Positions 1-64,000 of a stretch of DNA of 64,000 nucleotides are shown one piece after another (position 1 is the first letter of the stretch; each line of letters starts with the position of its first letter). Origin of the DNA: Mesostigma viride (Eukaryota > Streptophyta > Mesostigmatophyceae > Mesostigmatales > Mesostigmataceae). Location of the stretch: positions 1,504,955-1,568,954 of the forward strand of contig RPFO01000188.1 in assembly GCA_009746045.1 (NCBI GenBank), in the 5' to 3' direction. The position numbers and the translations under genes were made by a program. The notes below the pieces were generated by a model that worked only from the letters and a program-made list of their open reading frames with translations, was not told the origin of the DNA and did no database searches.

Positions 1-197
1 TTTGCGCCCCTCCTCCACCAAGTATGCGGGTTACTCGACGAGCTTCCTTCGCCCACCAACCTGTCTAATTACTTCCCCTTCTCCTATTCATCCCCATTAT
101 CTATCTTAAGTGGGCTACTCGACGCGCCTCCTTAGCCCACCGACCTATCTGATTACTTCCCCTTGTCGTCCTTTTCATCCCACTATCTATCTACCAG
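1..197 (+). repeat. Intronic tandem copies of a SerRS exon start
   Basis: Two degenerate copies of the first 25-30 nt of the exon starting at 198 lie at about 19-48 and 108-137. Each is followed by the same 60-nt pyrimidine-rich intron stretch that precedes the real acceptor. The unit is about 90 bp and the third copy is the functional acceptor plus exon. The copies carry substitutions that break the coding sequence. Confidence 0.8.
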
Positions 198-3100
198 GTA
201 TGCGGGCTACTCGACGTGCTTCCGCAAGGAGGTCGGCTCCCACGGCCGCGACACGCTGGGCATCTTCCGCGTGCACCAGTTTGAGAAGGTGGAGCAGTTC
301 ATCATGTGCTCCCCACACGGCGAGGAGTCGTGGCGCATGATGGACGAGATGATTGCCAACTCTGAGGATTTCTACCAGAGCGTGAGTTGCCCCTCTTTGC
401 TGCCTGTTTGGTCGCGCTTGCCTGCTTCCTTGTGTCCTTGTGTCCTTGTGTCCTTGTGCCCTTGTGCCCTTGTGCCCTTGTGCCCTTGTGCCCTTGTGCC
501 CTTGTGCCCTTGTGCCCTTGTGCCCTTGTGCCCTTGTGCCCTTGTGCCCTTGTGCCCTTGTGCCCTTGTGCCCTTGTGCCCTTGTGCCCTTGTGCCCTTG
601 TGCCCTTGTGCCCTTGTGCCCTTGTGCCCTTGTGCCCTTGTGCCCTTGTGCCCTTGTGCCCTTGTGCCCTTGTGCCCTTGTGCCCTTGTGCCCTTGTGCC
701 CTTGTGCCCTTGTGCCCTTGTGCCCTTGTGCCCTTGTGCCCTTGTGCCCTTGTGCCCTTGTGCCCTTGTGCCCTTGTGCCCTTGTGCCCTTGTGCCCTTG
801 TGCCCTTGTGCCCTTGTGCCCTTGTGCCCTTGTGCCCTTGTGCCCTTGTGCCCTTGTGCCCTTGTGCCCTTGTGCCCTTGTGCCCTTGTGCCCTTGTGCC
901 CTTGTGCCCTTGTGCCCTTGTGCCCTTGTGCCCTTGTGCCCTTGTGCCCTTGTGCCCTTGTGCCCTTGTGCCCTTGTGCCCTTGTGCCCTTGTGCCCTTG
1001 TGCCCTTGTGCCCTTGTGCCCTTGTGCCCTTGTGCCCTTGTGCCCTTGTGCCCTTGTGCCCTTGTGCCCTTGTGCCCTTGTGCCCTTGTGCCCTTGTGCC
1101 CTTGTGCCCTTGTGCCCTTGTGCCCTTGTGCCCTTGTGCCCTTGTGCCCTTGTGCCCTGGCGCCCTGGCGCCCTTGTGCCCTTGTGCCCTTGTGCCCTTG
1201 TGCCCTTGTGCCCTTGTGCCCTGGCGCCCTGGCGCCCTGGCGCCCTTGTGTCAGAGGAGTTCTACCAGAGCGTGAGTGGCCCCTCTTTGCTGCCTGTTTA
1301 GTCGCGCTTGCCTGCTTCCTTGTGTCCTTGCGTCAGAGGACTTGTTCCAGAGCGTGAGCGCCCAGTTGTTTCATCAGTGCTTGCTGCCCTTTGTGTCTTA
1401 TTTACGGAAGTTGTGCCACTGTGTCGGTGCCGGCAATGCCTAGTTTTAGCTCGGTATCCCCTTTCTTGGAATTGTGCTACCCACGCGCGATCATTGGGAG
1501 GCAGTAGTGCTTTGCTCTTCCTTGCCTTCTATAAAGCCAAGGAGCTTGGTAGTCGGCTTCCTGCTCTTGTCAAGGATTTCAGAACCATGATCGCGTCAAG
1601 AGACAATTACTAGCCACGGTTCTCGCATTTATGGGTGCCTAAAGCAAGTTCGCCTCCTATGCCTTCCACAGGCGCACTTACACAGCTGCCCATGGCTATG
1701 TTGTGGACCTCCTTGCTCTGGCAGGGAATGGGATCCGATCACTGTATCGCCTATCACCCCATCACCCTATCACCCCATCACCCTATCACCCTATCACCCT
1801 ATCACCCTATCACCCTATCACCCTATCACCCTATCACCCTATCACCCTATCACCCTATCACCCTATCACCCTATCACCCTATCACCCTATCACCCTATCA
1901 CCCTATCACCCTATCACCCTATCACCCTATCACCCTATCACCCTATCACCCTATCACCCTATCACCCTATCACCCTATCACCCTATATACCCCATCACCC
2001 CATCACCCCATCACCCCATCACCCCATCACCCCATCACCCCACCACCTTATCACCCTCTCACCCTATCACCCTATTCACCTTATTCATCCTATCACCCTA
2101 TTTGCTACCTGCTGCGCAGCTGGAGATCCCCTACCGCATTGTGAACATTGTCTCGGGCGCGCTCAACAATGCGGCCGCCAAGAAGTATGACCTGGAGGCG
2201 TGGTTCCCCGCATCAAAGACATACCGTGAGCTGGTCTCGTGCTCCAACTGCACCGACTACCAGGCGCGGCGCCTGGAGACGCGCTTTGGCAACAAGAAGG
2301 TGGGTGGGGGTGGGTGGGGGTGGGGGGCACGCTTAGACAACAAGAAGGGGGGGGGGGGGGGGGGCACGCTTAGACAACAAGAAGGGGGGGGGGGGGGTAG
2401 TGGGCACGCTTAGACAACAAGAAGGGTGGTGGTGGTGGTGGTGGTGGTCACGCTTAGACAACAAGAAGGGGGTGGGTGGGTGGGTGGTGGTGGTGGGCAC
2501 GCTTAGACAACAAGAAGGGGTGGGTTGGTTGGGGGTGGGTGGGGGGTGGGTGGGGGTGGGTGGGGGTGGGTGGGGGGTGGGTGGGGGTGGGTGGGTGGGG
2601 GGTGGGGGCACGCTTAAACAACACGAAGGGGTGGGGGGTGGGTGGGGGGTGGGGGTCGGCACGTTTAGACAACAAGAAGGGTGTGGGGGGGGGGGGGGGG
2701 GGGTGGCACGCTTTGGCAACAAGAAGGTGGGGGGGGGGGGGGCGATGCAGTCATCGCAGTAGCAGACAGCTGAACGTGGTTATACTAGAATAGGTTTGAA
2801 TATGCATGTTTGTATGCTTTGGCAATTAGAAGGTAGCCGGTGGTGCGATGTTGCTGTAGTAGGCAATGCTGTCAAAACAAAACTTAATAATTATAAATTG
2901 TGTGTTGGTAGGAAGAGGGTGGGGCATGGGCCACACTAGTTGAGTCTTTTCATGTCAGAATGTCATCTGGAAAGTGCTTGGAGGACATGGTTCTAAAAGA
3001 CATTGTGCGATTGGATGTCTTAAGAAGTTTAAGCTTAAGCACTCTATTATGTGAAATTATGTTGAGGAACATCCTTACAAAGACTCATATGGCCAATTGA

Positions 3101-4035
3101 ATACGGTATCCCAACCCCGGTTACCAGCTTTATTGCACTGTCATATGCAAGGAGATGTTCATGCAAGAAAATAATATTTTACTTGGTTTTTGTCAATGCC
3201 TCTGCATAGCAGTTTTCTCTTTCCCCTTAATCCTTGCAGTTATATTTTTGTGCCTGTCAGTGTCTGTTGAGCCAATGATGTCCCTGCTATGCTGACCCAG
3301 TCCCAATTTATGTAAAGGCTTACGAGTACCATGTATTGCCTGTTCTTCTCCCAACAGAAACAGATGTTTTGAAAATAACTCACCAAATTAGGCCCCCCTT
3401 GCTGTCGCCCCTTCCACCCATTTCCCCCCACCTTCCCCCTCAGGTAGAAAGGAGTACCTGCCTTCCGTTGATGGTGAATATATAGCTGGTCTTTCACCCC
3501 ACCCTTTTCCGCACGCACGCACGCACGCATGTACACACATATATTTACACTTACACACTGTACTTACATGGACACACGGACGCACGCACGCACAAACACG
3601 CACACGTACACACACACACACACCTGATGGGCAAGGAATATGTGCCTCACATAGTTCATGTAGTTGGCCTTATTCCTCGTGTTCCTTTAGTTGACCTTGT
3701 TCCTTGCCCTGGTCTCGCCCTCCCCTTGCGCCAGGTGGGCGCGGACGCGTACAAGGACTATGAGCCTCACGTTTATAGTTGGTCACCCTGCCTTAGTTGA
3801 CCTTTTTCCTTGCCCTTGTCTCTCCCTCCCCATGCGCCAGGTGGGCGCGGACGCGCGCAAGGAGTACGTGCACCTGCTCAACAGCACGCTCTCGGCCACC
3901 GAGCGCACGCTGTGCTGCGTGCTGGAGAACCACCAGACGGCTGAGGGGTTCAAGGTGCCCGCCGCGCTGCTGCCCTTCATGCACGGCATCGAGTTTGTGC
4001 CCTACATCTCCATCCCCAAAGCCAGCAAGAAGTAG
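198..4035 (+). CDS. Seryl-tRNA synthetase, cytosolic type (C-terminal part; gene enters from left edge)
   Basis: The enzyme charges tRNA-Ser with serine in the cytosol. Exons read as 198-381, 2120-2299 and 3841-4035 (stop TAG 4033-4035). The first exon begins with the third base of a split codon; the other two junctions are phase 0. The first exon carries class II motif 2 ([12 protein letters not shown], then [14 protein letters not shown]). The second has [17 protein letters not shown] and the conserved [14 protein letters not shown] segment. The third carries motif 3 ([19 protein letters not shown]) and ends in a Lys-rich tail (KASKK), as in eukaryotic SerRS. The N-terminal tRNA-binding coiled coil and motif 1 lie outside the window. 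About 185 residues are visible of a family length near 450-500. Nothing is broken in the visible exons. Both introns are loaded with minisatellites and degenerate copies of the exon edges. Identification is near certain; boundaries rest on GT-AG sites and frame. Confidence 0.95.
431..1253 (+). repeat. 8-bp minisatellite (CCCTTGTG)n in SerRS intron
   Basis: About 100 tandem copies of an 8-bp unit, very homogeneous, with a few CCCTGGCG variants near 1155-1240. Because 8 is not a multiple of 3, all three plus frames read as long Cys/Pro/Leu repeats; these are not proteins. The array lies just 3' of the donor at 382 and is followed by two more degenerate copies of the exon end plus donor (about 1254-1300 and 1335-1360). 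Confidence 0.95.
1755..2095 (+). repeat. 8-bp minisatellite (CCCTATCA)n in SerRS intron
   Basis: About 40 copies of an 8-bp pyrimidine-rich unit directly upstream of the acceptor at 2119, shading into CCCCATCA variants near 1985-2040. It sits where a polypyrimidine tract is expected. It is open in several frames but has no protein character. Confidence 0.95.
2300..2830 (+). repeat. G-rich array with about nine copies of a SerRS exon end
   Basis: Starting at the donor (2300), GGGTGGGGGT-type tracts alternate with degenerate copies of the exon end (ending GGCAACAAGAAG). Copies lie near 2329, 2368, 2407, 2451, 2498, 2608, 2660, 2707 and 2814. In most copies the TTTGGC of the exon has become TTAGAC; the copy at about 2707 keeps TTTGGC. 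G-runs give strong quadruplex potential on the transcribed RNA. Confidence 0.85.
3510..3840 (+). repeat. CA/ACGC microsatellite and two copies of the last SerRS exon start
   Basis: At 3510-3625 there are (ACGC)n, (AC)n and related alternating purine-pyrimidine tracts. Then come two degenerate copies of the start of the exon at 3841: about 3626-3654 and 3731-3775, the second with its own CGCCAG acceptor-like site. Each is followed by a TTAGTTGACC and CCTTGCCC spacer like the one that precedes the true acceptor. Unit length is about 105 bp. Confidence 0.8.
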
Positions 4036-5002
4036 GCGGCATGCGCGCGCGTGCCACACACCCCACGCCAGGTGAGCAGAGCAACCGCATTAGCGGGATC
4101 CGTGGGGCAGGATGTGATGCGCTGGCTTGACCATCCAAGGACATTTATTTTTGTCTCGTTGACTAGGGTACCTTGCCTAGCTAATCGAATGGAAGGTGTT
4201 TCATTGGCGTAAGGAGCCTATGTCCTTCACCTGGAGGGATGCTGGCTAGTTGACCAGGAAAGCTTGTTTGTTCATTAGCGGAGCTCTCCTTGGGTGCGGC
4301 GTTTGTGCAGAGATGAGGGATTCACGCGCTCCAAGGGGTAGTGAGGATGCAGCGGTGTGGCAAGGATCATTAGGCCTGTTGTGCGCCTGGGCTGGCATGG
4401 ATTGCATGAATGGCCAGGGGTGTATGGGTTTCCCTGTGGGTGCTACATGGGTTGGCATTCTTCATTGTCGGAGCCCGTCACCCTGCTTGATGGTTACCCT
4501 CGTTTGGTAATCTGACGGCTGCGGTAACTTGGAAAGACGTGTTGTGGATTTCTGGTGACCTTTAGATGTGCGGCGAGAAGTAAAGTGAGCAATGATGGTA
4601 TGGCGAAATGATTTACGGCTTACGCAAATGTGCAGCACATGGCTTTTCGTCTGTTTTTACTTTCTGATTTGTTCGACATTCTAATATGAGTCCCTGTTTT
4701 CCTGGTCACTCCGTGCATCGCATGGCAAATGCATTTGTGTGCGTGCAGCCGTTGAACATGTAACGAAGCTGGGGCATATTGAGCTGCAGCATGATTGTTT
4801 ATGAATAACCGTTATACCATGGCTTGATTTTGTAGAGGGCGTTGACTGTGCACTACACGGTTGTGGAATACAGAAACACATTTTGTCGACCAACCCCACA
4901 ACAGTTAATAAGCCCTACAACAATTAATAAAAGCATCTAGAATAAACCTGCGCATATTACTGCGAGGTATTAACTAATATGCGCATGTGAATATAATATA
5001 AG
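4036..5002. other. Intergenic region downstream of SerRS
   Basis: This is the SerRS 3' UTR and downstream DNA. I see no gene, no recognisable element and no obvious repeat. Short ORFs on both strands (for example 4250-4510) have no family character. The region becomes AT-rich after about 4900. Confidence 0.5.
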
Positions 5003-5188
5003 GTTGTCTCCTTGATAAGGTCAATAAATCATTATTAAGTATCAATCATCATTAAGTGAGACAACTATTCCTGGACGCATGACGATCCAACGCCGTGAAA
5101 GGACTAGGGTAGTTGTCTGAGAGGAAAGACGCGAAGACCGCGGGAGCTGCGTGGCTATCTATAGGCTAGATTATCAAGGAGACAACCA
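5003..5188. mobile_element. Small foldback element (MITE-like)
   Basis: A 17-bp inverted repeat, GGTTGTCTCCTTGATAA at about 5004-5020 and its complement at about 5171-5188, bounds roughly 185 bp with no ORF. The interior includes ATTAAGTATCAATCATCATT. No clear target duplication was found. Size and ends fit a short non-autonomous DNA transposon. Confidence 0.55.
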
Positions 5189-5234
5189 GCGCAGGCCAGA
5201 AATCGGGAGATTATGCGCACAACATGCACAAGAG

Positions 5235-5785
5235 TCTTTGTATCAGGGTATGCCTCGCATTTCGGACGAGATTAGGCAGCGTAGGATAGCATTCGTATGA
5301 CATCTTGCTCGCACCAGTCAGGTAGACACCGCCCTCAGTCTGGCCGGCCCCCAGCGGCTTGGCCAACCAGGGCGGCACATCCTGACCTGGCCTGGCCCCA
5401 AGGACATTCCTAGAAAGATGGGTAAACCTGCCATGAACTACACACAGCAGTTGCTGGCCGACCTAGTGGTCCCAGCTAAGTTTGAACACCGCATTCACTC
5501 CCTGTCTCTTGCTTGGACTGCTATGCAGGACAAGAAGAGGTGGAAGACGATTGTCCAGGCTCACACGCCGGCCCCTGTGGGCAAGCCCCCTCCCCCCAGG
5601 AGGAAGGGGCGCTGTTGCTGAGTAGAGTAGTTAGGGTTTAACTATATTAGCTTAGAGTTAGCTTAGTTCGGTTAAATCGCGGCTTAGATCGCCCACCTCC
5701 ATCCATCCAGCAAGGGAATACGTGCTACATGATCTCCCAACGGAGTCATGTTATATAATTTAATTTTATTTAATTTGCGTGCACA
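5235..5785 (+). mobile_element. LINE 3' end: ORF2 C-terminus, hairpin and AT-rich tail
   Basis: The plus frame from about 5260 to the stop at 5619-5621 reads like the C-terminal tail of a LINE reverse transcriptase (EIRQRRIAFV, a stop where Arg is expected, then HLARTSQVD ... DKKRWKTIV ... KPPPPRRKGR). This matches the common GHVLRM...RW pattern downstream of LINE RT domains. A TGA replaces an Arg codon, so the copy is dead. The 3' UTR ends in a hairpin at 5727-5751 (ACATGATCTCC, AAC loop, GGAGTCATGT) followed by TTTAATTT-type sequence. Two further copies of this 3' end follow. Confidence 0.65.
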
Positions 5786-5924
5786 AGTATCACAGTCATT
5801 ATAAGATCGAGCAGTGACCCCAGGCACCAATGAGCCGGCCCAGGCGTTTTGTCCTTACATGGTGCGCCCCAGGCCACTATGCATGAGCAGCAGGGCGACT
5901 ATCCCTGGAATAACCATGCATGAT

Positions 5925-6155
5925 AGACACCGTGTGGGCAACCCCCCCCCCCCCCCCCCCCCCCCCCCCAAGCGGAAGGGGCGCTTTGCTGAGTGGAATA
6001 GTTAGGGTTTTCTAGAATAGATTAGCTTAGAGTTAGATTAGTTCGGTTTCGCGGCTTCGCCCACCTCCATCCATCCAGCAAGGGAATATGTGCTACATGC
6101 ATGATCTCCCAACATACGGAGTCATTAAATTAAATTAAATTAAAATTAAATTATA
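5925..6155 (+). mobile_element. Second LINE 3' end copy
   Basis: A direct copy of the 3' part of the preceding element. It starts at the Pro-rich end of ORF2, where a run of about 30 C replaces the PPPP codons, and runs through the GTTAGGGTTTTC and CCATCCATCCAGCAAGGG segments to the hairpin near 6101-6125 and an (ATTAA)n tail. 5' truncation is typical of LINE insertion. Confidence 0.65.
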
Positions 6156-6440
6156 ACATGCCTCCGTGGGGAGGTCATGTAGCACATATTCCATGATGGA
6201 TGGGGTGGAGGAAGCCGCGTGATCGAACTATCCTAACTCTATCTAGAAAATCCTAACTACACTACTCATCAAAACGCCTCCTCCGCTTGGGGGGAGGTGG
6301 CTTGCCCACAGGGTCGGGCGTGTGCGCCTTGACAATCTTCTACCGCGTCTTGTCCTGCATGGCAGTCCAAAGACGGGAGAGAGAGAGTCATGTTATAATT
6401 TAATACGGAGTCATGTTATAATTTAATTTAATTTAATAGA
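6151..6440 (-). mobile_element. Third LINE 3' end copy, inverted
   Basis: A minus-strand copy of the same 3' end. Its tail (6125-6155) is shared with or abuts the plus-strand copy, and the hairpin is at 6156-6180 (ACATGCCTCC, GTG loop, GGGAGGTCATGT). Reading leftward on the minus strand gives WTAMQDKTR, a stop, then KIVKAHTPDPVGKPPPP, so the copy is inactive. The two insertions are tail to tail. Confidence 0.65.
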
Positions 6441-7414
6441 CACTGTAAGTGAATGCGTTACCCCTGCCACCGACTTGGGGTTGGTATCGATCCTTTAAAA
6501 CTACCTGCCACCTATCTTTGCGAGTCATCTGCCCCCAGATTACAGACAGACCAGGAGGCTGCCCGGGCTTGAGCCCGTTCCTAGGGTAGCACATGTCCAG
6601 TCCCAGCATATCATGAAAAGGCCAGCGGTGGCCACCATGCTGCGTGTAGTAAGCCCAAATTGATCTAGCAACGCACCAGACATGGCCTCATGAAAGCTAG
6701 CCAAACACGGAATCCATTAGCCATTGCACACGTCTTCGAGAAAATCTATTCGCACTTGAGACTTTGGAACATTGATGATGCCATCGCGCCAAAGAACCTA
6801 AAACTTGAAATCATGGCACAATGGAATACCCTTTGGCCGAATGAACCTGCAGCTGGGTTCCAGTCTCAAACTCTTCATTGAGATCTCAACAACAACCGTC
6901 TAACACAAACCAGTTGTCGAAGCTTGAGATCTTAAACTTATCAGGGCCCCCATCCGCTGGACATCTTCGGAGGCCTGCCTTACTGAAAGCAAGCAGTCAG
7001 CTATGCAGCTGGAACAAAGGGACACCCAGTTGCTTGAGTTCCCATGCCCACCAACAAGCGCTTGCTGCTTCAGAGCTGCCCTGGTTGCCTCACACATGAG
7101 CCACTTGATTGCGTCGGTCTTTCATTATGAGGTCCTTTTGACTTTAAGACCAGTGCACTGGCTGCGCATTGATAGAATTATAAAAGGGCTGCCCCACCCC
7201 TAGCGTTTCATGGCGAGTGACACAATATTAGAACACCGCACGCCCACTGCGTAAAGGCTACCATGCAAGCAGGTGGGCGTGCATACCAGCCAGTTCCTTC
7301 CCAATTCCTTCCTGGCCTCCTCAGCCCGCACCTAAAAGCCTAAAGGAAATTGCAGCAAGGGAAGGGGGGAACATGATATGGGAGGCAAGTCCCATAAAGA
7401 AGATGAGGGGACCC
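6441..7414. other. Intergenic region, no recognised feature
   Basis: Unique-looking sequence with a few short ORFs (for example 6690-6881) that match no family I recognise. A small AT-rich repeat of TTTAATTTAATTTAAT lies near 6420-6436. Confidence 0.4.
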
Positions 7415-7825
7415 TCAGATCTGCGTGACATTCCGGATATCATGCCGTATTTGTTTCCACGCAGAGGTGTTGTACGTATAAGTGACATCCAATTTAACAG
7501 TTTCTGCTGCCGGGACTTGAGCCAAGAGCTCCACGTCCACTGTCATTTTATCATCTTTGAGCTCCACAGCAGGACCACGGGTCACAGTAACTGTCCTAAC
7601 TCTGCCAAAGTCCTTAGTATACGATGGCAAGATCGTGTCGCGGCCTGTGGCGACAAGCTTGCCGTCTAGCCAGACTTGCACCTGCTGATCCAAGCAGCTC
7701 GAAACACCCTCTAGATCTCCTGCATTATAAGCCGCAATATAACGGCTAAATTCTTCCAGTACACGCTGGCTTGGTTCCATTGGATTATCTCGACACGTCA
7801 GGTACAATCGCAGTAGGACAGCCAC
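7415..7825 (-). CDS. NTF2/SnoaL-like small protein
   Basis: A single-exon ORF of 136 residues on the minus strand, stop TGA at 7415-7417. The segment YIAAYNAGDLEGVSSCLDQQ followed by VWLDGKLVATGRD has the helix-then-sheet pattern of NTF2-like/SnoaL-like domains, where a substrate pocket or dimer sheet follows 'AYNAGDLEG'. The C-terminal strands (AVELKDDKMTVDVELLAQ) fit the cone-shaped fold. Substrate and role cannot be told. A second ATG about 15 codons in (MEPSQR) gives a protein that starts right at the fold and may be the true start. It is the only single-exon host-like gene here; its upstream side faces an ORF on the other strand across about 60 bp. Confidence 0.6.
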   Translation of the reverse strand: MAVLLRLYLTCRDNPMEPSQRVLEEFSRYIAAYNAGDLEGVSSCLDQQVQVWLDGKLVATGRDTILPSYTKDFGRVRTVTVTRGPAVELKDDKMTVDVELLAQVPAAETVKLDVTYTYNTSAWKQIRHDIRNVTQI

Positions 7826-7886
7826 GCAGGGTTCGTTAATCCTGGGCTTTTAAAGACTTGTTTTAAAACGTGGCAACTTAGCTTAG

Positions 7887-8171
7887 ATGCCGTCCAGGCA
7901 GCAGATGTCTTTCAGAAGCAGCCAGCATCAGACCAAGCTAGTTTCGCGAACTTCTGTGGGCATCCTGCGGGACGCGATTGATAAGGGGCTTGCCCATGCT
8001 GTGATGTCGCTGACCGGTACTAACGTATCACCCTGCCAATCGTTGCCATATTCCGCGATGGCCGTGTGGGACGCGAAAAACCGCTTCATTGTCGGTGGTG
8101 TCCGTAGTGTGTTTTCGGGCGTAACGAGGTTATCACACCGGGCCTGCCCTGCACCAGCGGCTAAAGACTGA
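7887..8171 (+). CDS. Doubtful 94-residue ORF divergent from the NTF2-like gene
   Basis: An ATG-started ORF that begins 61 bp from the start of the NTF2-like gene on the opposite strand. The middle (VGILRDAIDKGLAHAVMSLTGT, written with breaks: VGILRDAIDKGL / AHAVMSLTGT) looks moderately protein-like, but no family is recognised and no introns can be proposed. It may be noise. Confidence 0.25.
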   Translation: MPSRQQMSFRSSQHQTKLVSRTSVGILRDAIDKGLAHAVMSLTGTNVSPCQSLPYSAMAVWDAKNRFIVGGVRSVFSGVTRLSHRACPAPAAKD

Positions 8172-8349
8172 AGAGTTTGTTATGATTTTTAAACGGGTGA
8201 TTTTGTAAGTACGTTGCGCTTGCCACCATGAACGAAACGATTTATGCTAGCAAGTGTTAGTTAGTTAGTTACCGTTGCTGAATCCCACGCTAGCATGATT
8301 GTGTACCTAGGGTCATCAGCAATCAGCATGCCATATGCATGCCGTCTGC

Positions 8350-8379
8350 AGCAAGCAAGCAAGCAAGCAAGCAAGCAAG
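8350..8379. repeat. (GCAA)n microsatellite
   Basis: About seven perfect tandem GCAA units just left of the MITE at 8392. Confidence 0.9.
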
Positions 8380-8391
8380 GGAAAAGGTACA

Positions 8392-8632
8392 TACAGGCAT
8401 TCACGCCTCAAGTTGGGTTGGCTTAAGTTGTGTTCACGCCTTAAGTTGGGTCAAATAGGGCATTACAAGTTCAAAGTAGTTCAGAATATTATTTTTTAGT
8501 ATCTTTAGTTCAAATTAGTCGAATTTACTAGAATCATTCACGCCTTAAGTTGGGTTCACGCCTTAAGTTGGGTTGACCCAGGGTTGACCCCTCAAAAACC
8601 TCGAACCCAACTTCAGGCGTGAATGCCTGTAC
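8392..8632. mobile_element. MITE with 28-bp terminal inverted repeats
   Basis: The ends are inverted copies: TACAGGCATTCACGCCT with AAGTTGGGTT on the left, and the complement at 8605-8632, with one mismatch. The interior carries three further direct copies of TTCACGCCTTAAGTTGGG and two of GGGTTGACCC. It is about 240 bp without coding capacity. The subterminal repeats may be transposase binding sites. Confidence 0.7.
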
Positions 8633-9026
8633 CAGATCTTAGTTGATCCAGGGTTGATCCACCGTACCAACGCCGTGGCGGGCAAGTGGCCGGGTGGTGT
8701 GCCAGTACATACGTACCACGTGATGCTCCTCAGGCGCTGCGAGATCGCCTTACGTGGAAGCGAGCCGGGCTGCGTTCTTGCCTACATTTGACAAGTTACG
8801 TGAAAGGTTGAAGGTGACACGCAGTAGTGGTGGTCCGTGAAAAATATCCCCACCATTCAAGAATACGATCATAATTGCTGTGCTTTACAGTAGCTCAGAA
8901 CGGAATCCATTCCAGGGCTGACCGCTCTGGACGAACTTTGGGAAGATGATAACAGCAGGATAGCATTTTTCCCTTGGGAATCACCGAGAGCTTTGACCAT
9001 GTCAGCGTGACCTGCCACAAGCAACC

Positions 9027-40277
<31,251 letters not shown>

Positions 40278-41213
40278 GTCAAGTAATTGCTGGAGCGCAG
40301 GTCAAGGAGTTAGTGGATAAATATACATGCACCACAAGTAGGAGTCAAGGAGGAGATTCTAGCAAACGAGGTGAACGGTAGTGCTGGAATATGTTTGGCT
40401 ACACTTGCCAGCTTTCAGTCCCAGCTAGCACGGCTATCAACTATTGTGACCTACTACTGTGTCATTGACATCATGGGTTGACATCATATCATCTACTGTT
40501 CATCTTAAGTACTGCAGAGACCACAGCCTGCACTCATGTTCACATCACAGCACATCTGGCGCCGCCAGATGCGGGGTGCTCATGCTTGGTGCTCACCAGC
40601 CAATTATGGTGAGGTCTAGCGACACCCAGCATGTCCAGCTTTATCAATCGTAAGTGCTTTAGAGGCATCCTGACATGGATAAATAGCCTTTTCGAGGCAG
40701 GCATCTTGATGTCGTCTTGCGGCTGACGGTGGTATCCAGGAATCTAGTATGTACCCGGTGTACTATATTGAATCGATTCATCACCATTGTTGTAAGCGAA
40801 TTCTTATACACGAGCATGCATATTTTGGATGATGTATACTAGCTAGAACATGCAATCGTGCCGGTGCATGTAGCATGCACAAGTCCTCGATCCACAACCT
40901 CAACAAACTGCGTCGCACGCTATGGTGTAATTTAATTTAAATTAATGGTCAATACATTCCTAGCTAGCATCTTGTCCATCAGAGTTCCTTCCCACCATGC
41001 AACACTTTTACAAGTGTTCCCGTTGTACTATATTGAATCGATTCATCACCACTGTTGTAAGCGAATTCTTATACACGAGCATGCATATTTGGATGATCTA
41101 TACTAGCTAGAACATGCAATCGTGCCGGTGCATGTAGCATGCACAAGTCCTCGATCCGTGGGATCCCCAACAAACTGCGTCGCACGCTATGGCCGGTGTA
41201 ATTTTATTTTAAC
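40278..41213. other. Region downstream of the kinase-U-box gene, with two direct repeats
   Basis: Two 170-bp direct repeats at about 40760-40930 and 41022-41195 (TACTATATTGAATCGATTCA, AACATGCAATCGTGCCGGTG) each end in an AT-rich TTTAATTT tail. The segment GGTCAATACATTCCTAGCTA at 40948 recurs at 45790. These look like 3' ends of short retroelements. No gene is seen. Confidence 0.55.
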
Positions 41214-45969: not shown

Positions 45970-47830
45970 AAAGCAAAACGAGGTTTGGAAAAGGAGCTCA
46001 TATGTAGTTTCTGGCTCCCAGCCCAACCCACTCGCCATCGTCCTTGCCCAGCCGTCTGGGCCCGCAAACCCATCGCCAGCAATTAATAACCCATCGCCAA
46101 GCGCCTCGCCAGAGCCCAAGAAACCCTGCTACGACAAGAGCTTCAAATGGCGACAGTACCTAGAGTACGCATGCTTTACGTTCAGCGGCTGCAGCTGAGA
46201 CTGACCGACGCACACTGCGCCGAGATAGTCCAGTACTTCGCACTGGAACACAAGCAAGCTCTGTGGGCCCGATGGGCCCATGATTCCCCGCCAACAAAGT
46301 GGAGGAGTTTCTCGCCCTGCCAGAATTCAATCATTGCCTCGCTGTCCTTTTCAGCTTAACTTCAAGCTAAGTTAACGCGACCTCGTCGCTAAGCTCCGCA
46401 ACCCAGCCCGGCGCCTGCGCAGCCGGCAGCCACATCGGCTCCCTCCCTCTGCAAGGATGACATCCGAGCAGCGCTGGAGGAGCACGTGTCAACCTGGCCG
46501 TTGGCCGAGAAGCTGACCTCGCTGAACACGACCGGCTCAACATGCACGGTGGCGGGCTCGGGTCACCAATGTGGAAACCAAGGTCGTCCACAAGCTCCAA
46601 CCTCAGTAGTTCACGGCGCTGCAGGTACCGCGGCGCAGGCATCTGAGGCGCATGCTGCACTTGTCTCTCGCCTAAATCAGGTGGAGGGCAAGACTGTGCG
46701 GCTTGCTCGTCAAGAAGCTCCAAGCCATGCATCACCACCCAAACCGACGCCCTGGCCGCGCAGCAGGCCCCGGCGATTGCAGCGCAGACGGCCACCATGC
46801 ATAATTGCAGCCCAGCCCACCCGGCCGGCAGATGATAGCCTCTCGCCGCGTACTCCTACTAGCTGTACGCGGACCTGCTGCGGTCAGCGACCGCCTCGAC
46901 CACTGACTCCATCGCTACGAAACTCCAGGAGCTTGAAGACCTTCGCCAGGCAAAACAACGGGAGGCCACCGACCGCGCTCGCCGGGAGTGCCGGGTGGTG
47001 CTGCGTCGCTTCCCCCAGAAGCCAGGGAAGACGTCAACCACCCTTGCCGACGAGCTCAAGCCGACCAGCTCGGCCTTACCCTCATGGGCCTGGTAGGTGA
47101 GGTAGAACTGCGTGCATGGGTGCCACCGCCTTCCCCACTCACGGGACAAGGCGACTCCCCCACCAGTCCTGCTCACCTTCCCCTCCCCTGAGGACATTGA
47201 AGCAGCGGTTCCTTTCTGGTCGCAAGAGGTTGCACGACCTCACCTGGACGCCGGACGACGACAGTGACCCCCGCTCCGCAGCAGCAGCGACGCGACCTGT
47301 GGCCGGGATACCTCCGCCACAAGCAGGACCCCCAGAAGCCCAAGGTGTACTGGCGGGGCGGGGACCTAATGATCAACCACGTATTACTATACCATCCAAG
47401 TGCCGGACTAGCTAATAGCCCTAGCTTGTATCCCTCAGTAGTCACTGCCGCCATGGCAGCCATATGCTTAGAATGTTTGCCTAGCTGTGCCAACATACCT
47501 ATAGTCACGCGCATCGCTCATGCACGGTATACAACCAGCCATAGCCCTAGCTTAGTCCTTGTACAGCCATGCTACGTCCTGGCTATGACCAGATTCCTTG
47601 CCCACGCTCCCTTGTTATGCCATGCTCACATGGGTCATATTGCACCCACTAGATTGCCGGATCGTTAGCGTGTCCGTTGAGCTAGCGCGCCCGAATGCAG
47701 CTGTGGCATGCCTTAGGCATGAAGGAGACTGGGGGTCTCTGCCCTTTCTCCTGTTGTGTAAAAGCTCTTCGGTGCTCCGTGACTCCCCAACGGGAGCACG
47801 AGTTTAATTAATTAATTAATTAATTAAGTG
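45970..47830 (+). mobile_element. L1-like LINE ORF1 copy with 3' UTR, plus strand
   Basis: ORF1 is readable in pieces: RLQLRLTDAHCAEIVQYFAL (46190), a region homologous to the split copy (GAEKLTS then LNTT near 46510), SRLNQVEGKTVRL (46670), LQELEDLRQAKQREATDR-type heptads (about 46925), RECRVVLRRFPQKPGK (about 46985), then LTWTPDDDSD and KPKVYWRGGDLMINH. Several frameshifts, so dead. The 3' UTR ends in hairpin 47772-47799 and a (TTAA)n tail at 47802-47827. No ORF2 follows, so the copy is internally deleted or belongs to an ORF1-only family. Confidence 0.7.
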
Positions 47831-53142: not shown

Positions 53143-55230
53143 TGTTCACCAGCCTAGCCCACTCCTGGATGTCTCGCGGCTTCATGCTCTTGTTTAGCTT
53201 GGGGATGTGCTTGAAGTCGGGCATGGGGTCTGCCTCCGACTGGCTGAACTTCCATTGTACGCGGTACTGGCGCACCATGCCCCTGCCTCGCTTCTGATCG
53301 CGGTGGGCCACAATGGCCTCAACCTCATTCTCCGTCCTCTCCCGTCTCTGGGTTGTGTTCTAGCGGCGCAGGGGCGTCTACCCTACCCGGGAACGTGCTC
53401 TTGTGCATGGTACAGTTTTAACTGGTCCCTGTGGAACGTGTTATTCTGCACCTGCCAAGTGGAGGGCACGTCTACCCGGAACATGCAGTCCTTGAACTTG
53501 TCCACCACCGGATACGGGCTGAGGAAGATTGGCTTCAACTTGGTCTTAAGCCCTTCCTCCACCTTCTGGGCGAAACCACCTAGTTGAGAACCCTCCACGA
53601 GGACCAAGTCCCCGATTTCGATCGCGGGCGTGCGAGCATCAATCGCGGCTCTCAAGCGGCGCGCCAGGCGTTTGTCTCGTGTGGCTTGGTATCCCAAAAC
53701 CGCACTTTCCTGTGCCTGCTTCATGTGCTCAAGCATCTCCCTCACACGTACCTCGCACCGTCGTGCGTATGGTTGCGTCCTTGCTGGGCATCTGGCTGGC
53801 CAGCATTACGGCTGGGGTGAGGGGGGGCTGTCCTGTGTCCAGGAAAAATGGCGTATAGCCCGGCGTGGGCAGCCTGGGACGAGTTGTTAAGGGCCACTGA
53901 AACTCGACAAACCCAATGAACTCATCCCAGTTGTGGCCTCGCCCCTTGATGTAGTGGCGCATGGTCTCCTCCACTACCCGGTTAAGTCGTTCTACCAGAT
54001 GTGTAGAGGAGCTGTGGTATGCGGTCCCGAGGGAGACCTTGATGCCCAGGGTTCCGAAGAACTCTTGCCAAAACGTGGCAGTGAACAGCTTGTCGCGGTC
54101 GGAGATAAACTGGCGACTCAGCCCATGGTACTTGAAGACATTGTCTAGGTAGAGTCGGACGCAATCCTGCGCGGTGAGTGTCAGGGGACAAGGCACCAGA
54201 TGGCACCTGCGGGTCAACCGATCGAGGAACACCAAAATCTGCTCGTTACCCGACGGGGTCCTTTTGAATGGACCAACGAAGTCCATCATCAGGCTATCCC
54301 AAGGTCGCAGCGGATCAGGTAATGAGTGGGGGGTGGCCTGCGACCCGGTGTTGCGCGGCTTCATCAATTGGCACGAATGGCATGTGCGCACATATTCCAG
54401 TGCCTCCTGCTTCATGCCAGGCCAGAAGAATAGCCGTCGCAGGTGGCTTAGGACCCGATGGGTGCCCTGATGACCTCCCAAGGGAGCTCATGCAAGAGCG
54501 CGGCTCTAGCGATGGGCGGTATATACAGCCGCCATTGATCCCGGGGTCCCGTCATCACGTACAGGACCCCGTCTTGGAACTTGCAGGGGAGTCCGTTCAT
54601 CTGCTGCGGGTGCACTGCAATGGCTGCCTGCGCCTCGGGTTCGGTCACCGTGAACCTACTGACGATGCGCTCCAAGTCGGACGTTATCTTAAAGCTCTCC
54701 GTGTTGCCTTCGGGTACGGGCAGCTTTTCCAAGTCGTCCTGCTCCTGGCGAATGGTGGTGTCGCCTGGTTGCGAGGTCGTGACTCGCCTAGCCTGGTTCG
54801 CGTGAGCGCATTGATGTCCGCAACGGAGCCGAAGTTTCTGTCGACAAGAAGGGGCTCGCCAAGTGGTGTGAGGCTAAAGCCGCCTACTACTGGTGGGACC
54901 GCATGACTGAGAGGGATCCGGTGATGGGACCCCTCCCCCCCCATCGGGGTGGGCGCGTCCTCGAGCTCGTCGCGGGGCCAAGGGGCCAAAACGTCAGCCC
55001 TGGGTGGTATGGTCCTCATGGAAGAGGAACCGTGAGGTCAAGGATCCGTCCGACACGCCATACTACGGCGGGACAGGACCCATGGTGGGCACACAAACGG
55101 TGTGCAGCACATCCAAGTCCTCATAGAACTGGTAGTCTGCGCGGCGGGAAAGCGCGTCCGGGACAACTTTGTCCTCACCCTTCACATATTGAATGCGAAA
55201 GGGGGCGAACTGGGACAGATACTCCATCCC
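53143..55230 (-). pseudogene. Ty3/gypsy chromovirus pol fragment (RNase H end, integrase, chromodomain)
   Basis: Minus strand from 55230: VKGEDKVVPDALSRRADYQ (end of RNase H), a linker, then the integrase: zinc-binding region (GGHQGTHRVLSHL ... CHSCQ), core with MMDFVGPF, FISDRDKLFT and the Glu in HLVERLNRVVEE (the DDE triad), then the C-terminal GDLVLVEGSQLGGFA and TFHRDQLKLYH module. After a stop region (about 53390) a decayed chromodomain-like tail reads VAHRDQKRGRG. Frameshifts near 54475 and 53360 disable it. The core ORF at 53729-54481 is still open. RT and protease are missing; the 5' break is near 55235. Confidence 0.85.
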
Positions 55231-63220: not shown

Positions 63221-64000
63221 CTAGAGCTTGTGCAGGGTTTTATACTCCTGCAGCAGGCGACTACACCCATCTAGCTCACTTTCCGTATACCAGACCTTAT
63301 CTACCTCACTACGAGCATACATCCACTTCACCTTATACTGGCGCTGGGTACCGCGGCCCTTTTTGATATCTCTATGGGCCACGATACCCTCTACTTCGTC
63401 TTCTACCTCCCCAGTGTCAGGGTTATGCTCTAAAGGGGCAGGCGCTAGCTCTCTACCAGCGAACGTACTAGGGTGGTACAGTTTTAGCTGGCTCCTATGG
63501 AAGGTGTTCGAATGTGTCTGCCAAGAGGTAGGGATATCGACTTTATATAGGAAATTTCCTACTCTAGACAAAACATGGAAGGGTCCTAAGAAGGCGGGCC
63601 TAAGTTTGACCTTAAGTTCTGCTTCAAACTTATGAGCAAAACGGCCAACACGGGGGCCTTCTACTAATACTAGATCTCCTATTTCTATCTCAGGTGCTCT
63701 TCTATCTAAGGAGGCACGCAACCTAGCAAGGTACTTAGACTGAGCTTTTTGGTACCCTGAGATCGCGTGGTCATGAGCAGTTTTCATTCTATCTAGTAAG
63801 GACTGTACACCTTCTACAGTATCTCGGGACACATCATCCTTGTCCCGTAGAGGACTAGCTAAGAGAGAGGTAGGGTAAGAGGCTGTCTACCAGTATCTAA
63901 GAAGAAGGGCGTATATCCATGCGCAGCTTGGGGACAATTGTTGAGGGAGAACTCTACCAAACATAAATAATCCTCCCAATCACTACCCGAGCCATTAACA
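63221..64000 (-). CDS. Chromovirus pol C-terminus (integrase end, chromodomain), continues off right edge
   Basis: Minus strand from 64000: DWEDYLCLVEFSLNN, HGYTPFFLDTGRQP (end of the integrase core), a frameshift near 63875, then LASPLRDKDDVSRDTV, EIEIGDLVLVEGPRVGRFAH, LRPAFLGPFHVLSRVGNFLY, NTFHRSQLKLYH (integrase C-terminal module), and a chromodomain VEGIVAHRDIKKGRGTQRQY, KVKWMYARSEVDKVWYTE. Stop TAG at 63221-63223. It is clearly related to the pol fragment at 53143-55230 but better preserved. The chromodomain would target integration to marked chromatin. One frameshift disables this copy unless it is programmed. Confidence 0.85.

Follow-up and report, generated by a model that had tools for sequence, protein, structure and literature searches.

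In a 64,000-nucleotide stretch of the genome of the streptophyte Mesostigma viride (GenBank assembly GCA_009746045.1, contig RPFO01000188.1, positions 1,504,955 to 1,568,954 of the forward strand; hereafter the window), the introns of two genes hold decayed copies of their own exon-intron junctions, which raises the question of whether some mutational process is aimed at splice sites. An earlier note on this DNA had proposed such a process, one that repeatedly duplicates DNA centred on splice junctions. We find that the copies are real and are more frequent at donors than at acceptors. They probably reflect a pervasive local tandem duplication of non-coding DNA whose fossils are kept at exon borders, with no process aimed at splice sites needed.

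Of the first gene, which runs off the window, we have the C-terminal portion of a class II tRNA synthetase; it matches PF00587 (E 1.2e-32, Pfam search of the translated part), and we take it to be SerRS. In the second gene, a kinase gene, the 26 hand-built exons yield a 1502-aa protein, all residues of which are the same as in EukProt Mesvir1 Mv12188-RA, and the exon-proximal donor agrees with the annotated protein at 25/25 kinase introns. Exons of the two genes are numbered with the prefixes s and e, respectively.

198..381, + strand: SerRS exon s1 (open reading frame (ORF), AG/GT borders, PF00587)
2120..2299, + strand: SerRS exon s2 (own-intron alignment test)
3841-4035, + strand: SerRS exon s3, next to the acceptor copy at 3735..3774
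9026..40276, + strand: Ankyrin-TKL kinase-U-box gene, 26 coding exons (model equal to the EukProt protein; Pfam Ank, Pkinase, U-box)

The 27 introns analysed have a mean length of 1112 bp. For the 442 Mb assembly of M. viride NIES-296, Liang et al. 2019 (PMC6947507) give 24,431 genes, a mean intron of 1142 bp and an intron repeat content of 30.1%.

We aligned the last 40 nt of each exon to the opening 1000 nt of the intron that follows it and of the 26 other introns. The own intron scored highest at 13/27 donors (s1, s2, e3, e6, e9, e14, e15, e19 and e21-e25), while exon-start and mid-exon control windows took the top rank at 0/27 and 0/27, which places the junction copies far above chance. 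Windows spanning the junction added the donors of e4, e5, e10, e12 and e16. The e13 donor reached p 0.08 in the rank test and came out on top only with the first 100 or 150 nt of the intron as target. All 19 donors named in the earlier note are thereby supported in at least one test, five of them (e4, e10, e12, e13 and e16) thinly: e4 by a single pair 733 nt apart, e10 and e16 by a single window apiece that just reaches the threshold score of 24, and e12 by scores of 24-27 in the junction-spanning test. The rank, spanning-window and short-target tests gave no support for the remaining 8/27 donors (e1, e2, e7, e8, e11, e17, e18 and e20).

Aligned donor copies carry about 8 to 50 nt of coding sequence, many with further similarity on the intron side, and differ from one another by substitutions and indels. 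Duplication across the junction followed by decay, as had been suggested, fits these alignments, since in many copies the similarity extends to both sides of the junction. The duplicated units are for the most part about 30-130 bp long. Several copies per junction were also borne out, with a maximum of 8 (at the s2 donor) rather than the nine reported before. The copies and arrays at donors, some of them detected by Tandem Repeats Finder (TRF), are as follows.

1251..1311, + strand: donor copy of s1, beyond the (CCTTGTGC)n array, with a second copy from about 1333 (scores 106, 41)
2336..2862, + strand: up to 8 donor copies of s2 with G-rich runs between them (alignment; TRF arrays 2307-2742)
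11263..11340, + strand: donor copy of e3 (exon end 11191; rank test and alignment)
12691..12755, + strand: weak, distant donor copy of e4 (exon end 12014; score 33, spanning-window test)
16275..16566, + strand: donor array of e6 with a 58/119-bp unit (exon end 16232; TRF, alignment)
19276..19495, + strand: three donor copies of e9 (exon end 19242; scores 45, 41, 38)
21513..21575, + strand: donor copy of e12 (exon end 21482; score 45, spanning-window test)
22389..22450, + strand: donor copy of e13, thin support (exon end 22330; score 48, top for short targets only)
23439..23645, + strand: three donor copies of e14 (exon end 23382; scores 52, 41, 38)
+416 from exon end 23382, + strand: fourth candidate donor copy of e14 (score 33)
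24689..24970, + strand: three donor copies of e15 with 43-48 nt of coding sequence (exon end 24629; scores 59, 49, 44; intron-side similarity p 0.05)
26102..26195, + strand: weak donor copy of e16 (exon end 25817; score 40, one spanning-test window)
30063..31295, + strand: two donor copies of e19, from 30063 and 31245 (exon end 29996; scores 75, 41)
33046..33095, + strand: donor copy of e21 (exon end 32956; rank test and alignment)
33421..33622, + strand: recent 60-bp array crossing the e22 donor (exon end 33435; 99% TRF array, alignment)
34594..34655, + strand: donor copy of e23 (exon end 34558; score 53)
36810..37495, + strand: 61-bp array touching the e24 donor (exon end 36811; TRF), then four older candidate copies (scores 54, 40, 27, 30 at +229, +377, +512, +637)
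39422..39495, + strand: donor copy of e25 (exon end 39351; score 66)

Acceptors gave fewer copies. In the corresponding rank test the own intron was top at 5/27 acceptors (s3, e20 and e25 strongly; e15 and e21 with low scores of 20 and 19), against 1 and 0 top ranks for the controls. The s1 acceptor, whose upstream intron runs off the window, was scored separately. Of the acceptor copies reported before, at two SerRS exons (s1 and s3), e20 and e25, those of s3, e20 and e25 are clear, and that of s1 scores well above the 27 other acceptors.

22..47, + strand: acceptor copy of the s1 border (24/26 identity; score 42 vs a maximum of 20 in 27 other acceptors)
3735..3774, + strand: acceptor copy of s3 (score 37; distance 106)
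31826..31850, + strand: acceptor copy of e20 (exon start 31955; score 27, distance 129)
37721..37760, + strand: acceptor copy of e25 with its own C tract and AG (exon start 37846; score 44, distance 125)

Exon 25 has two acceptors (37721 and 37846), 125 nt apart and each with a C tract. This spacing is not divisible by 3, so splicing to the upstream acceptor would change the reading frame. The exon is a natural test of acceptor choice.

The pattern was followed in 20 loci, each 10 kb of DNA surrounding one of the top-scoring members of a set of 149 WD40 matches, with exons predicted by a small gene finder trained on the window. On the window itself, the finder returned 20/29 hand-made exons exactly, shifted a border in 8 and missed 1; exact exons scored at least 21, one false exon scored above 20, and the predicted donors of e12 and e22 were shifted to the downstream donor copy. 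Among 176 predicted sample exons, 109 internal exons were used (score of at least 26, length of at least 60 nt), or 135 at a score of at least 22 in the first test. We dropped introns and targets shorter than 250 nt (200 in the first sample test), as well as any window in which more than 8 bases were masked (4 in the counts of pair spacing and dinucleotides); arrays of period 10 or less were masked in the counts that followed the first sample test. The data thus cover one curated gene and part of another, plus 20 WD40 loci with predicted models, all from one strain.

In that first, unmasked test (108 donors), the own intron scored at least 24 for 20 donors, compared with 6 mid-exon and 0 exon-start windows; at p<=0.05 the numbers were 27, 11 and 4. 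Acceptors reached 9/109, with controls at 4 and 4. With masking, 23/84 sample donors had copies, in agreement with the expectation that the pattern recurs in other genes. Either the kinase gene shows a general trait in a strong form, or imperfect gene models dilute the sample.

Donors and acceptors differ in both data sets. Copies were found in 14/27 donor versus 3/27 acceptor windows of the window (Fisher 0.003) and at 23/84 donors versus 8/80 acceptors in the sample (Fisher 0.005). Sample acceptors may be predicted less exactly than donors, which could lower their count, but the curated window has the same asymmetry. This asymmetry is the most interesting part of the result.

Whether junctions are targets depends on what they are compared with. 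Mid-exon windows are an invalid control, because a tandem duplication that carries the middle of an exon into an intron must carry the exon end as well, and because duplications inside exons are expected to be removed by selection. Junction windows were set against intron interiors. Under a strict score, the windows with copies (in the window and the sample, respectively) were 10/27 and 14/82 for donor exon ends, 9/25 and 21/84 for donor-spanning windows, 17/50 and 19/167 for donor-side intron edges, 55/334 and 105/993 for the interiors of the donor set, and 0/40 and 5/152 deep in exons. On the acceptor side, they were 3/27 and 4/79 at exon ends, 3/27 and 8/77 in spanning windows, and 39/338 and 102/934 in interiors, so that acceptors are not above interiors. 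The picture was the same in a run with another null.

A sensitive score, which measures similarity to the nearest 200 nt as the excess over mismatched introns with window and sample pooled, gave for donors 3.75 at the exon end, 5.18 in spanning windows, 5.31 at the edge and 4.88 in the interior. The values for acceptors were 1.56, 2.78, 3.56 and 4.51 in the same order, and those deep in exons were 0.40 (donor set) and 0.06 (acceptor set). This self-similarity is local, near sequence beating far sequence inside the same intron. Windows lacking a strong match (score <18) retained a weaker excess (interiors 1.02 and 0.90, deep exon 0.27 and 0.10), as expected if introns are full of duplications that have decayed past recognition.

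A junction-centred process is not what these values describe, with interiors scoring 4.88 and 4.51 against 3.75-5.18 for donor exon ends and spanning windows and 1.56 and 2.78 for acceptors. The earlier note had named as many duplicates in mid-intron as at junctions as the result that would speak against it; the sensitive score yields that result, whereas under the strict score donors keep an excess. A junction-centred process should also give more duplicates than mid-intron at donors and acceptors alike, and acceptors equal or fall below interiors in both scores. Recent duplicates are not enriched at junctions either: copies scoring at least 55 occurred in 0/27, 0/82, 0/25 and 1/84 donor windows, compared with 36/334 and 50/993 interiors. 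Geometry lowers the number of recent copies expected at donors, and we do not claim a depletion.

We therefore favour, as the probable explanation, an ongoing gain of short tandem duplications (the bulk of about 20-130 bp) by M. viride non-coding DNA without strong preference for splice sites. A unit crossing a donor would leave the mRNA unchanged if the exon-proximal, first-transcribed donor is used, and the extra exon end and donor would land in the intron and decay neutrally. Since selection keeps the exon copy from drifting, such a pair would remain recognizable for more time than an equally old pair lying wholly in the intron, and exon borders would act as fossils of a process running throughout the intron. 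A unit crossing an acceptor would instead place a false acceptor first in line, where it is usable and endangers the mRNA, so these units would be partly removed. Both the neutrality of donor copies and the purging at acceptors are inferred. Slippage and fill-in repair of staggered breaks are candidates for the molecular cause. In plants, short tandem duplications arise when adjacent nicks or staggered breaks are repaired by fill-in synthesis, and those in M. viride are similar in having units of tens to about a hundred bases and no donor element; their breakpoints are too decayed for a closer comparison.

This explanation was compared with simulated introns undergoing random tandem duplications, substitutions, indels and deletions next to a frozen exon. 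For the strict measure, the exon-end/interior ratio in five simulated settings ranged from 0.45 to 1.24, being highest with single duplications; the real acceptor ratios were about 1.0 and 0.5. For the sensitive measure, four steady-state runs gave 0.50-0.98 and two old-burst runs 0.91 and 1.71, with real ratios of 0.77 for donors and 0.35 for acceptors, the latter below all runs. Under the model, then, donors by the sensitive measure would need little beyond a uniform process, and acceptors would fall short at the exon end.

Several observations nevertheless weigh against a uniform process. By the strict score donors stand about twofold above interiors, and the real exon-end/interior ratios at donors are about 1.6 and 2.2, an excess that, in terms of the model, an older burst could explain, as could a real donor bias. 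Windows that share an intron depend on one another, so the tests made per intron count most here: the donor minus interior difference is 0.080-0.236 (94 introns; p 0.007 by rank test, with 0.043 for the window and 0.086 for the sample taken alone), and that for acceptors spans zero (-0.086 to 0.043, 92 introns), though with a rank test p of 0.006. The excess is three- to ninefold in the short or degenerate class (scores 24-39, by subtraction), and the near-lack of recent donor copies is less well predicted by a steady state. In the sensitive measure the donor spanning ratio of 1.06 lies just above the steady-state maximum of 1.04, within the burst runs, and the donor edge ratio of 1.09 is above all six runs (maximum 0.97). 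Junction pairs are also spaced wider than interior pairs, with overlapping ranges (pooled p 0.008); intact-looking decoy acceptors persist at s3 and e25; and the non-genic 40.3-64 kb of the window, which holds retroelement ORFs, contains few duplicates (0.028). Given the strict-score ratios, a moderate donor excess may remain beyond the uniform model.

Such an excess could alternatively come from a mutational process aimed at 5' splice sites, in which transcription- or splicing-coupled breaks, R-loops or slippage at the G-rich intron start duplicate the DNA there. The twofold strict-score excess, the position of donors far above acceptors, the edge windows slightly above every simulation and the G-richness of intron starts on the coding strand (G 0.368 in the first 60 nt vs 0.244 in the interior) would all be accommodated. 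By the sensitive score, however, interiors are as high as donors; recent copies are not enriched at donors, and gaps outside introns are equally rich in duplicates. G content in the first 60 intron bases is equal at donors with copies (0.368, n=37) and without (0.369, n=74; p 0.95), and G-richness, or R-loops as far as G content reflects them, was rejected as the cause. Overall, we regard an aimed process as unlikely. In its full form, 5' splice sites would be duplication hot spots owing to breaks or fork events, coupled to transcription or splicing, just downstream of exons, introns would grow mainly from their 5' ends, acceptors would not be affected, and the decay-corrected donor excess would reflect mutation and not only selection; this, too, we consider doubtful.

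A duplication process specific to introns was likewise discarded. In the window, duplicate-bearing windows made up 0.150 of 828 in introns and 0.035 of 1386 in intergenic DNA, and the contrast is gone in the 20 loci (non-intron gaps 0.158 of 3174, introns 0.139 of 1374), where single loci weigh heavily (0.70 in the gaps of L036, 0.61 in the introns of L050).

The copies themselves bear on the other alternatives. In a same-strand search, 41/49 donor pairs lay 28-255 nt apart and 8 farther, with median spacings of 115 for donors (n=49), 129 for acceptors (n=19), and 89.5 (n=58) and 80 (n=57) for interiors; donor spacing compared with its own interiors gave p 0.11. A donor unit of about 105 bp was considered and is not claimed (12/49 pairs at 103-127 nt vs 8/58 and 6/57 interior; Fisher 0.06 pooled). 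Past the splice consensus, gapped alignment found intron-side similarity at p<=0.1 in 8/21 copies selected by their exon part, compared with 51-60% in simulation, and gap-free identity beyond +6 was a random-looking 0.27 in 13 copies. The idea that copies comprise only the exon and the splice consensus is countered by the gapped similarity, even if this is somewhat below simulation. At 13/27 donors the copy was specific to its own intron, and no introner-like family was found across the introns of the two genes compared.

Selection could have kept the copies in the role of decoy donors, reserve donors or U1-binding sites that protect long introns. A GT follows the copied exon end in 15/27 exon-selected matches (one of which, in L048, is a masking artefact) and is kept in 7/13 under a stricter count limited to alignments that end within 12 nt of the junction; among intron-selected donor copies the splice dinucleotide is kept in 4/8. 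Yet this retention is near the flanking identity (0.69 per base vs 0.56-0.79), with nothing to suggest either function or purging, and copies often run into plain intron (8/21). With no excess of GT over flanking identity, functional decoys were rejected, and a selective origin seems improbable.

The copies might also be relics of introns born by tandem duplication of exonic AGGT segments. Tandem duplication is the recognised agent in cases of intron gain (PMC4974935, PMC2891723). An intron born in this way should carry, at its 3' end, a copy of the end of the preceding exon and, at its 5' end, a copy of the start of the following exon. When targets were set to 100, 150 and 300 nt, the former took the top rank at 1, 1 and 1 of 27 and the latter at 1, 1 and 2 of 27, about chance; the donor test on those targets gave 12, 11 and 12 of 27. 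We hold this origin to be very improbable. An artefact of assembly, low complexity or gene-model error we judge equally far-fetched: the region is rich in simple repeats and the sample models come from a finder trained on the window, but the copies differ by substitutions and indels, arrays of period 10 or less were masked, the kinase model agrees with a separate annotation and the mismatched-intron controls are clean.

Known systems share parts of this behavior. In the potato RdRp gene, a tandem duplication crossing an acceptor changed the transcript and made a new intron (Ma, Lan and Niu 2016, PMC4974935), a transcript change with which the purging account for acceptors fits; an 83-bp tandem duplication inside the first intron is also mentioned there. 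Both cases involve a local direct duplication across a splice border with copies differing at some sites, but potato RdRp is a single acceptor case, whereas the M. viride duplications are many, mostly donor-crossing and confined to introns. Intron gain under the Rogers AGGT model (Drosophila cases, PMC2891723) has tandem duplication as its agent in common with our case; the M. viride copies, in contrast, sit on the donor side of an intron that already exists and not at its 3' end. As with tandem repeats and minisatellites that reshape gene structure (PMC2812944), tandem units here can touch or change gene structure, but most of the M. viride copies are one to a few decayed units recognised through the frozen exon copy. 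No report of widespread donor-junction copies was among the literature matches listed, and an earlier description may exist.

Other repeats occur in the same DNA. Very long simple arrays occupy introns of both genes: 428-1250 and 1750-2101 (8-bp units) and, in the kinase gene, 9902-10874 and 21621-21855 (4-bp) and 35290-36382 (6-bp). Kinase intron 4 contains a large nested inverted repeat at 13072-14249, a foldback-type element whose arms measure 338 nt (99% complementary, 85 nt apart) and 117 nt (98%). A short telomere-like stretch of CCCTAAA units lies at 32633-32655 in a kinase intron. The string RLNQVEG is common to ORFs at 30110-30643 (intron 19) and 46393-47097, which are possibly pieces of related dispersed elements; a Pfam search at E 0.01 gave no match for them. 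Retroelement ORFs on the minus strand at 53732-54487 and 63224-63886 carry integrase H2C2 and rve core domains and a Tf2-1-like SH3 with chromodomain.

If local tandem duplication is as pervasive as we propose, exon borders would serve as clocks: with one copy frozen and the other decaying, the rate of duplication and the neutral decay of introns could be read from a single genome, and the growth by which an early streptophyte came to have introns of 1142 bp on average could be tested directly. The asymmetry between donors and acceptors would let competition between splice sites be studied as a natural experiment. Should the site transcribed first prevail, duplications crossing a donor would be expected to be silent and those crossing an acceptor harmful, and the counts suggest that this is so.

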